DNA from: Paenibacillus sp. 19GGS1-52
GTDB lineage: Bacteria > Bacillota > Bacilli > Paenibacillales > Paenibacillaceae
Direction: 5' to 3'
DNA: 64,000 bases
Assembly (NCBI RefSeq): GCF_022369515.1
Contig: NZ_CP059724.1
Coordinates: 1,798,001-1,862,000 of the forward strand
Shown: in pieces, positions 23,485-50,069 of the stretch
Layout of the letters: every line of letters begins with the position of its first letter
Numbering within the stretch: position 1 is the first letter of the stretch
The notes under the pieces: model-generated
Told to the model about the DNA's origin: nothing
Seen by the model: the letters and a program-made list of their open reading frames with translations, nothing else
Databases searched by the model: none
Position numbers and translations under genes: made by a program

Positions 23485-23603
23485 TGAATTTCACCTCCTG
23501 TAAGACATTCGGAATCATCGAAATGATTCACAACTTAAAATAGTTTAGCATGATCACTAGTAAAAAGCAATACTAAATGCTTTCAAATTAAACCTCCAGC
23601 CTC

Positions 23604-23634
23604 TGTATAAACAGTGGCTTTCTCTCGCACACTA
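23604..23634 (+). promoter_or_regulatory. Candidate sigma-G promoter of gpr
   Basis: TGTATA (23604-23609) and CACACTA (23628-23634) are 18 bp apart, close to the forespore sigma-G consensus TGMATA and CATACTA. gpr is known to be forespore-expressed in Bacillus. A start near 23641 would put all three hairpin units in the mRNA leader. Confidence 0.6.
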
Positions 23635-23653
23635 TCGACAGAAGTAAAAGCAA

Positions 23654-23854
23654 ATGCTTACGAAGCAATTTTATTGCGAAGTAACTCAAGAGAAGTATAA
23701 GCTCCATAAAACTAGGTGGATGCTTACGAAGTGAGTTTTGTACGAAGCTATTCAATGGAGATTAGGCTAACAAAACTTAGGGCTTATGCTTACGAAGCAG
23801 TTTTATTGCGAAGTAACTCAAGAGAAGTATAAGCTCCATAAAACTTTTAGGAGG
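23654..23854 (+). repeat. Three tandem hairpin leader units before gpr
   Basis: Units at 23654-23713, 23720-23777 and 23786-23845 each begin ATGCTTACGAAG. In each, AGTTTTRT or a near match pairs with a downstream AYAAAACT: 23667-23674 with 23706-23713 (one mismatch), 23734-23741 with 23770-23777, and 23799-23806 with 23838-23845. Units 1 and 3 are nearly identical. The last stem ends 3 nt before AGGAGG (23849-23854), the gpr ribosome-binding site. The same unit precedes prmA. Confidence 0.85.
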
Positions 23855-23863
23855 CTGGAAACA

Positions 23864-24868
23864 ATGGATCTGGACCTGCAGCTGTATTCGGTACGCACGG
23901 ATTTGGCGGTTGAGGCTAAGGAAATGGCCCAAGGACCGCAGAAGATGCCGATACCCGGTGTGAACGAAGAGGTGGAAGAGTCGGACGGTATTAAGGTTAC
24001 CCGGCTTGGAGTAGCCAATGCAGCCGGTTCACAGGCCATTGGGCGTGCCATAGGGAATTATGTGACATTGGAAGTTCCTGGCCTGCGTAACGGAGACACG
24101 GGGCTTCAGCAAAGAGTATCTGATGTCTTTGCTCGTGAATTCGAGCAGTTCATGACAAAGATTGGTATTGGAAAGGATTCCTCCATACTTATTGTGGGTC
24201 TCGGTAATTGGAATGTTACTCCCGACTCACTCGGTCCCTTAGTTGTAGAGAACTCGCTCATTACGCGGCAGTTCTATGAGCTGGTTCCAGATCAGGTCTC
24301 TCCCGGGTACCGTAATGTGAGCGCGATTGCCCCCGGTGTGCTGGGATTGACGGGAATTGAGTCCAGTGAGGTTGTGCAAGGGATCGTGGACCGCACCAAG
24401 CCAGACGTTATCATTGCCATTGATGCACTGGCCTCTCGTTCCTTGGAACGCATCAATACTACGATTCAGATCGCTGATATTGGGATTCATCCGGGCTCGG
24501 GCATTGGCAACAAGCGGCGTGGACTGACTCAGGAGATTCTTGGTGTCCCCTGTATTGCTATTGGTGTCCCGACTGTATGTTATGCCTCAACGATCGTCAA
24601 CAATGTGCTGGAAATGATGAAGAAACATTTTGGAGGTGAAGGAGCCGCACATACTAAAGAAATTATGGGCTTGCTAGATGATATCTCTGAACAGGAGAGG
24701 CTGGAGCTAGTAAAGGAAGTATTGGAGCCACTCGGGCATGATCTGATTGTTACGCCCAAGGAAATCGATGAATTCATTGAAGGGATTGCTAATATCGTAG
24801 CTAGCGGACTGAATGCAGCGCTGCATGATGCCGTTGATCCCGGAAATGTTGGTGCTTATACCCACTGA
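23864..24868 (+). CDS. gpr: Germination protease Gpr
   Basis: Spore-specific endoprotease (peptidase A25) that degrades small acid-soluble proteins during germination; 334 residues. The N-terminus DLQLYSVRTDLAVEAKEMA and the motif VTRLGVANAAGSQAIGRAIG are diagnostic, as are VGLGNWNVTPDSLGPLVVEN and the DAL(A/C)SR segment. ATG 23864 follows AGGAGG by 9 nt. An in-frame upstream start at 23786 lies inside the repeat unit and is rejected. A sigma-G-like promoter and three hairpin units lie upstream; spoIIP follows as in Bacillus. Confidence 0.97.
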   Translation: MDLDLQLYSVRTDLAVEAKEMAQGPQKMPIPGVNEEVEESDGIKVTRLGVANAAGSQAIGRAIGNYVTLEVPGLRNGDTGLQQRVSDVFAREFEQFMTKIGIGKDSSILIVGLGNWNVTPDSLGPLVVENSLITRQFYELVPDQVSPGYRNVSAIAPGVLGLTGIESSEVVQGIVDRTKPDVIIAIDALASRSLERINTTIQIADIGIHPGSGIGNKRRGLTQEILGVPCIAIGVPTVCYASTIVNNVLEMMKKHFGGEGAAHTKEIMGLLDDISEQERLELVKEVLEPLGHDLIVTPKEIDEFIEGIANIVASGLNAALHDAVDPGNVGAYTH

Positions 24869-48900: not shown

Positions 48901-48994
48901 AGCAGATGCTCCACAAAACTAAGCGAATGCTTACGAAGCCAGTTTTGAACGAAGCTGATCCAAGAAGCAGATGCTCCACAAAACTTTCAGGAGG
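48901..48994 (+). repeat. Hairpin leader unit before prmA
   Basis: An exact 20 nt direct repeat ending CTCCACAAAACT lies at 48901-48920 and 48966-48985. Between them are ATGCTTACGAAG (48927-48938) and AGTTTTG (48941-48947). AGTTTTG is complementary to both CAAAACT copies (48914-48920 and 48979-48985), so two exclusive hairpins are possible. The second copy ends 3 nt before AGGAGG (48989-48994). Same unit as before gpr. Confidence 0.85.
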
Positions 48995-49004
48995 ATTCAA
49001 AACA

Positions 49005-50069
49005 ATGTTATGGCATGAACTGACGATACATACAACAGAAGAAGCACAGGAAATGATCTCCAATCTGCTGTACGAAGCAGGCGCGGGCGGTGTTTCTATT
49101 GAGGAATCCGGTACGCTGAATAAAGTACGTGATACACGTTACGGTGAATTATACGATCAGCCGCTGAATGACATTCCCGAAGGGGAAGCGGTCATTAAAG
49201 GCTATTATTCCGATACCGTCTCCATGGAAGCCATTATAGAAGAGCTGACCCCAAGAGTGGAGGAACTGCGCGAATTCGGTATAGATCCTGGCAAAGCGCT
49301 GATCTCCTGGACAACCGTCGACGAAGATGAATGGGCCCATGCCTGGAAGCAATATTTTAAGCCACTACGTGTTTCCGAGCGCCTTACGATCAAACCGACT
49401 TGGGAGGAATATACGCCTGAAAGTCCGGAGGAGAAGATTATAGAGCTGGACCCAGGTATGGCATTCGGCACCGGTACCCATCCTACTACGGCGCTGTGCT
49501 TGCGTGCCCTGGAGAAGAATATTAGCGGCGGTGAGGAAGTGATCGACGTGGGTACAGGTTCAGGTATTCTGGCGGTAGGCGCAATGCTGCTGGGTGCGAA
49601 GTCCGTGCTGGCACTCGATCTGGACCCGGTGGCAGTAGCTAGTGCTCAGGAGAATGTAGCGTTGAATAAACTCCAGCAGGCCATTACGGTAAAAGAAAGC
49701 GACCTTCTGACGCTGCTCGGCGGCGCTGGTGTAGCAGATACGGTGGCAGGGGATATGTGGCCATCTGCCAGACCTGGCCATACCTTGGGTGAGAATGTCT
49801 TGCCTGCTGATGCTGAACAAGAAGCTGAAGGCAGCCTCGGAGTTACGCTCCCAGTACAAATAGTAGTGGCGAATATTTTGGCGGAAATCATTGTGCTGTT
49901 TACAGAGGATGTCTACCGTGCGCTTAAACCGGGTGGCATTTATATTACTTCCGGTATTTATAAGGATAAAGAAGGGCTTGTGGCACAGGCGCTGACAGCC
50001 TCCGGTTTTGACATTATTGAAGTATCCCATGAAGAAGATTGGGTGGCATTTACAGCCGGAAAGAGGTAA
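49005..50069 (+). CDS. prmA: Ribosomal protein L11 methyltransferase
   Basis: SAM-dependent methyltransferase of ribosomal protein L11, 354 residues, longer than the usual 310-320. The N-terminal substrate-recognition domain begins MLWHELTIHTTEEAQEMISN. The SAM motif is VIDVGTGSGILAVGAMLLGA, and VVANILAEIIVLF is the family signature. About 40 extra residues (AGDMWPSARPGHTLGENVL and following) sit just before that signature. ATG 49005 has AGGAGG upstream; the frame extends back to 48861 through the repeat but without similarity. Confidence 0.95.
   Translation: MLWHELTIHTTEEAQEMISNLLYEAGAGGVSIEESGTLNKVRDTRYGELYDQPLNDIPEGEAVIKGYYSDTVSMEAIIEELTPRVEELREFGIDPGKALISWTTVDEDEWAHAWKQYFKPLRVSERLTIKPTWEEYTPESPEEKIIELDPGMAFGTGTHPTTALCLRALEKNISGGEEVIDVGTGSGILAVGAMLLGAKSVLALDLDPVAVASAQENVALNKLQQAITVKESDLLTLLGGAGVADTVAGDMWPSARPGHTLGENVLPADAEQEAEGSLGVTLPVQIVVANILAEIIVLFTEDVYRALKPGGIYITSGIYKDKEGLVAQALTASGFDIIEVSHEEDWVAFTAGKR

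Follow-up and report, generated by a model that had tools for sequence, protein, structure and literature searches.

Tandem hairpin repeats adjoining the Shine-Dalgarno sequences of gpr, prmA and other Paenibacillus genes

Hairpin units in the gpr and prmA leaders

The window, the whole stretch of 64,000 nucleotides of Paenibacillus sp. 19GGS1-52 that was analyzed, contains the genes for a germination protease (gpr) and for the ribosomal protein L11 methyltransferase (prmA), each preceded by a leader with hairpin units (Table 1); NCBIfam models bear out both gene names. A unit comprises a conserved box, ATGCTTACGAAG, and a hairpin in which the sequence of the stem changes freely. For gpr, the arm pairs that an earlier, sequence-only reading had given for units 2 and 3 are those that we find; the one-sided A.C mismatch of unit 1 (AATTTTAT/ATAAAACT) was not mentioned there. 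At prmA, direct reading of the sequence agrees with the proposed single unit, its arms and the partial copy upstream. In both leaders the last arm ends exactly 3 nt before AGGAGG, as had been claimed, with TTT as the linker at gpr and TTC at prmA. A small ORF (ATG-CTT-ACG-AAG-stop) was considered and rejected, since the codon after AAG is a stop in some units only and the repeat period is mostly not a multiple of three.

Table 1. Features of the gpr and prmA leaders, with positions in the window.
Feature	Position	Strand	Description
gpr leader unit 1	23654..23713	+	box, then arms AATTTTAT/ATAAAACT, one A.C mismatch
gpr leader unit 2	23720..23777	+	box, then arms AGTTTTGT/ACAAAACT; 70.6 bits
gpr leader unit 3, adjoins ribosome-binding site	23786..23845	+	box, then arms AGTTTTAT/ATAAAACT
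gpr linker TTT (3 nt) and Shine-Dalgarno AGGAGG	23846..23854	+	AGGAGG itself at 23849-23854
gpr, germination protease, 334 aa	23864..24868	+	ATG at 23864; TIGR01441, 3e-117
Partial unit before prmA	48901..48920	+	ends in arm CAAAACT (48914-48920)
prmA leader unit	48927..48985	+	box, then arms AGTTTTG/CAAAACT; 68 bits
prmA linker TTC (3 nt) and Shine-Dalgarno AGGAGG	48986..48994	+	AGGAGG itself at 48989-48994
prmA, ribosomal protein L11 methyltransferase, 354 aa	49005..50069	+	ATG at 49005; TIGR00406, 7e-74

Among 80 named gpr orthologues, scanned for the box over 260 nt of upstream sequence and read over 210 nt, a unit is seen in P. ihuae and Paenibacillus sp. DMB5 only, besides the present genome. 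In the next-nearest relatives a corresponding site, judged by eye, is empty (GACAAAAGGAAAAGGAGG in L155, for example), and the flanks of close relatives agree, again by eye, up to the junction of AAAA and GGAGG. Since the nearest empty sites already carry AGGAGG or AAGGAGG, the gpr unit adjoins an existing ribosome-binding site. The sequence-only reading had offered a mobile repeat that supplies a ribosome-binding site as an alternative; mobility is in line with the empty sites, at gpr and elsewhere, whereas the supply of a ribosome-binding site is at odds with gpr. No clear target-site duplication, of the kind that marks a MITE, was seen by eye between filled and empty gpr sites, and the left ends of units elsewhere vary.

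Copy number, placement and spread of the family

The gpr and prmA repeats are members of a family of tandem hairpins, 40-70 bases in length, that occupies about 70 places in this Paenibacillus genome. In the genome of 6.83 Mb, the 12-mer ATGCTTACGAAG is present in 50 copies, a few of which are chance matches later rejected by the covariance model (L009, L019, L031); its reversed control is absent. This model, R1, was built from 40 units with the linker and the ribosome-binding site left out; 4 of 44 units had been dropped from its alignment (a 42-nt unit, a truncated one and two near-duplicates), and short forms and chance 12-mers lay outside the 44. A search of the genome with R1, in which 150 of 3601 candidates were scored, yielded at least 139 units at E<=1, and in the excised places 141 matches at E<=0.1 group into 70 clusters, of which 24 hold one unit, 28 two, 15 three, two five and one six. 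The family is thus short, dispersed and present in many copies, as small interspersed repeats are.

In 65 of the 70 clusters, 1-5 nt separate the end of the last unit from a same-strand Shine-Dalgarno match (from AGGAGG to as little as GGAG or GAGG), the distance being exactly 3 nt in 51 of them; the linker reads TTT 38 times. The five exceptions are two AGGGGG variants (L099, L127), a short unit missed by the model (L027), the second cluster of an interrupted array (L014) and a doubtful hit (L017). In 63 of 70, an ORF of 40 aa or longer starts right after the cluster on the same strand; at the other seven (L014 second cluster, L017, L030, L099, L120, L122, L127) the automatic scan found none of this length. 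The bias in strand and start-codon position expected by the sequence-only reading is therefore present, and it emerged from a model that did not contain the ribosome-binding site. At two places (L030:2501-2580 and L120:1175-1260) a good unit and AGGAGG are present and the automatic scan finds no ATG, GTG or TTG at the expected distance, which suggests an unusual start codon or a broken gene.

According to a crude ORF scan, a same-strand ORF ends no more than 60 nt from the start of 25 of the 70 arrays, which makes a role as promoter less likely for these, and many arrays occupy gaps between same-strand ORFs. Among 30 downstream proteins searched, two of which gave no match, no common theme was found; the genes include glpK, fabF, trpD, homoserine dehydrogenase, cdd, mdh, apt, ftsY and recN, as well as nifB, ribE, purS, sdhA and citramalate synthase. 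Within arrays, last units have a mean of 0.17 box mismatches vs. 1.22 for first units (46 arrays, the edges of which may be truncated).

At the very start of the assembled chromosome, five equally scoring units repeat with a period of exactly 61 nt before a short ORF of 89 aa (L114:50-348). Elsewhere, a second dispersed repeat (ATTTATAGGTTTCAC... and CTTATCCTTATATTTC...GAAACG...) splits one array (L014:6677-6830), and similar stretches were seen by eye upstream of arrays in L010, L011 and L012.

Matches to R1 were found in all 24 other genomes of the genus that were searched (1 to 103 at E<=0.01) and in 2 of 15 genomes of other families. When 296 genomes of the order were scanned with a looser box, ATGCTTHCGAAG, many members of the present genome's own family (f1) and of family f6 lay far above the reversed control, for instance with 187 vs. 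6, 137 vs. 4 and 121 vs. 5 occurrences (G124, G246 and G275). In others the box remains at control level, as in the eight genomes of family f7 (44 vs. 52) and in the seven of genus g18 of f1 (21 vs. 24). Among 139 genomes of the same class that lie outside the order, none exceeds 3 exact 12-mers. The box also occurs in f6 and in genus g19 of f1, where it precedes hairpins of very different sequence (GGCTATCC/GGATAGCC, AGCAATGC/GCATTGCT, AGCGTTCC/GGAACGCT), typically with YTTAGGAGG after them. In G124, a member of another family, the unit lies by eye directly before a Shine-Dalgarno-like run in 19 of 20 regions, 16 of these with AGGAGG (C11 to C44, following the order of the contigs and passing over one region at a contig end); the remaining one is a chance 12-mer. 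Among 30 cross-family loci, which were picked by search from four genomes and several of which come from the same arrays, a good Shine-Dalgarno sequence is absent at six (L357, L359, L361, L363, L371, L378) and displaced in L382. Two copies in G061 (L359 and L363) share the same context, before a small ORF that we take to resemble a holin-like type I toxin. Carriage by phages was considered and rejected: two patterns run over viral contigs gave 1 and 0 matches, and the single match lacks a hairpin.

Copies are also found in rRNA operons, in one genome only: 6 of the 9 places listed for G025 at E<=1 fall there, all on the transcribed strand. With rRNA ends taken from Rfam, the short form lies 5 nt before the start of 5S (L139) or 31-32 nt after 23S (L143, L144), and L140, L145 and L146 resemble these three by sequence.

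Paired arm changes and turnover at orthologous sites

That the hairpin unit is real, as the sequence-only reading had it, follows from direct reading and the 12-mer counts given above, and from the arms: among distinct box matches at loci of the genus, 143 of 218 have 8/8 Watson-Crick arm pairs, vs. 29 of 3000 random positions under the same scoring. The short forms are self-contained hairpins. Two alignments of these (16 and 17 rows, together 33 of 56 short-unit rows, with one stem offset and loops of 3 and 4) have 99.2 and 98.5% of cells paired, percentages that lean upward as rows were pre-chosen for at least 6/8 pairs; the second includes the worst-paired row, L090:1541-1577, and L385, a chance box match, was excluded from the first. 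Changes on both sides occur in 5/8 and 6/8 pairs, no cell in either alignment has a one-sided change, and the covariation score was reached by 0 of 500 shuffles, which ignore relatedness. Compensatory change beyond that of shuffles, as expected for a cis-acting RNA with a conserved stem, is thus present.

Stems that are selected as RNA usually tolerate G-U pairs and evolve via them. The excess of G-U over A.C in the arms expected for such stems was not found: the counts are 13 vs. 15 (209 distinct units, 12 dropped for too few pairs), 15 vs. 12, 8 vs. 14 and 1 vs. 0 in three further sets (the genus set without 6 of 218, for too few pairs), and 3 vs. 3 in another. As the paired changes arise almost without G-U steps, the two arms may be rewritten jointly at the level of DNA, through palindrome correction or the arrival of whole new units, or may matter as single-stranded DNA. 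The compensatory changes on which the earlier reading had based a selected stem are therefore upheld as an observation; the covariation is real, yet it is no proof of RNA function. We also considered pairing with rRNA: the longest complement of the box in 16S rRNA is 7 nt, a length that 56 of 200 shuffles reach or exceed, and in half of a G025 23S it is likewise 7 nt.

Orthologous sites gain, lose and swap units between relatives. For 32 genes, chosen for carrying a unit in the present genome (G000), G017 (91-99% identity) retains the unit at 28 of 32 orthologues, G009 at 13 of 27 and G011 at 14 of 27, and some orthologues without a unit keep a stump, such as ACAAAACTTTCAGGAGG in G017 (locus L014). 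The recN site of G000 holds two units of a single type; in G017, two similar units flank one of a different type. Across 30 pairs of orthologous last units, with one further pair left out for its 39 gaps and with a box match on both sides required, 15 of 359 box sites, 31 of 474 arm sites and 108 of 718 loop sites differ, the box rate being biased low because units were found by their box. The arms thus differ at 6.5% of sites, and the far upstream flanks on average at 6.5% (31 G000-G017 loci) and 4.3% (26 G009-G011 loci). Box and arms change more slowly than the loop, and the arms do not change more slowly than the flanks; the loop rate may be inflated by the swapping of units.

Possible roles and comparison with known repeats

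We tentatively favor, at somewhat less than an even chance, that the gpr and prmA leaders belong to an order-wide family of tandem hairpin repeats, on the sense strand and about 3 nt before the Shine-Dalgarno sequence, that would affect, in cis, the initiation of translation or the stability of the mRNA. The hairpin would probably keep the Shine-Dalgarno sequence single-stranded and protect the cistron on its 5' side against nucleases or structure further upstream; the box might be bound by a putative factor, copy number might tune the effect on the gene, and spread would occur by copying of whole units between loci, with the arms rewritten together at the DNA level. Several features favor an effect on the gene: units lie at one exact spot and in sense orientation, their box changes more slowly than their loop, and roughly half of the sites persist when more distant relatives are compared. 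Counting against it are the roughly half of G009 and G011 orthologues without a unit, the copies in the rRNA operons of G025, where no translation occurs, and the lack of a convincing 16S rRNA complement of the box.

A close rival, which we regard as a distinct possibility, is a selfish DNA repeat that is aimed at the Shine-Dalgarno sequence, or at the DNA of transcribed leaders, whose hairpin helps it to be copied and whose effects on the host gene are small or incidental. A self-serving repeat is favored by genes without a common theme, by the empty sites, by the lack of a G-U bias and by arms that evolve no more slowly than their far flanks. Further points for it are the fast gain and loss at orthologous sites, the whole unit of another type between the two units at recN in G017, the copies inside rRNA operons, and paired changes without G-U steps, which would be expected for single-stranded DNA hairpins or palindrome correction. 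Against this reading, box and arms differ less than the loop, and a Y1 transposase (PF01797), the sole mover searched, is absent from the present high-copy genome and from the copy-rich G011 and G017, only 11 of 22 genomes of the genus having any; this candidate was accordingly rejected as the mover here. Also, at least 63 of the 70 clusters lie right before a same-strand ORF, unlike BOX, RUP and SPRITE repeats, which gather between convergent genes (PMC3049150). Plain parasitism is not our first choice, because the Paenibacillus family does the opposite of BOX, a comparable family, in this respect. A bolder version is doubtful: a mobile nucleic-acid hairpin for which Shine-Dalgarno sequences are the landing sites and whose orientation is always that of the sense strand. 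It might integrate by way of RNA (mRNA leaders and rRNA precursors) and would thereby provide dozens of unrelated genes throughout the order with expression modules that can be tuned by copy number.

The G025 short forms near 5S and 23S, on the transcribed strand, and the many arrays between same-strand ORFs would also fit a signal for RNA processing or nuclease protection, covering the copies before Shine-Dalgarno sequences and those near rRNA. Judged from sequence, this is unlikely; rRNA copies were seen in one genome only, and rRNA matures in relatives that lack the unit. The sequence-only reading had proposed a translational switch with hairpins alternating between neighboring arms, and each AGTTTT arm at gpr and prmA can indeed pair with the AAAACT before or after it. 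As an account of the family we consider such a switch very improbable, as two alternative structures are not available to every member: 24 of the 70 clusters have a single unit at the model threshold (one of them, L027, with a second short unit that the model missed), at least L012, L013 and L030 lack an upstream partner arm by eye, the short forms are self-contained, and the 30 downstream genes have no theme.

If the preferred reading, an effect in cis on the adjoining gene, is true, much of a soil-bacterial order carries an element at one exact spot beside dozens of housekeeping ribosome-binding sites. This element would be undescribed in the literature searched: at the level of listings, the 12-mer ATGCTTACGAAG appeared in two unrelated papers only and the element itself nowhere. 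Changes in copy number between sister species would then form a natural series for asking how translation responds to a hairpin placed at a fixed distance from the Shine-Dalgarno sequence, and the family would be a case for how a repeat finds ribosome-binding sites. Annotators would be warned that a leader of this kind is not necessarily a riboswitch specific to its gene.

Translational riboswitches and RNA thermometers are structured leaders that adjoin the Shine-Dalgarno sequence. The Paenibacillus units differ from these in that they have no theme among the 30 genes, a free stem sequence and no Rfam match: Rfam 15 gave 0 matches in the window at the curated score (best sub-threshold E=0.07, in 23500-23900), and at seven related loci only rRNA, tRNA and one group II intron hit outside the units. 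The MIRU of Mycobacterium tuberculosis lie in intergenic gaps, oriented with the genes and often at start/stop junctions; we know of no box with a free-sequence hairpin, or fixed 3-nt distance to the Shine-Dalgarno sequence, among them. To our knowledge, REP/BIME, ERIC and Correia elements are not tied to Shine-Dalgarno sequences. The partner of REP is a Y1 transposase, which the present genome lacks. The BOX elements differ from the Paenibacillus unit in sequence and layout.

There are likenesses with all of these repeats. MIRU are minisatellites with copy-number variation, as is the case in the Paenibacillus family. REP/BIME, ERIC and Correia are likewise dispersed folded repeats, some of which alter attenuation or RNase cleavage of transcripts (PMC3049150). 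The BOX elements of Streptococcus pneumoniae (boxA-boxB(n)-boxC) are small repeats with variable tandem modules, predicted secondary structure and a reported effect on the expression of neighboring genes (PMC3049150), and the Paenibacillus family is similarly interspersed, variable in tandem number and folded. In the same paper, BOX is over-represented between convergent genes, whereas the Paenibacillus family lies on the sense strand, before the Shine-Dalgarno sequence.
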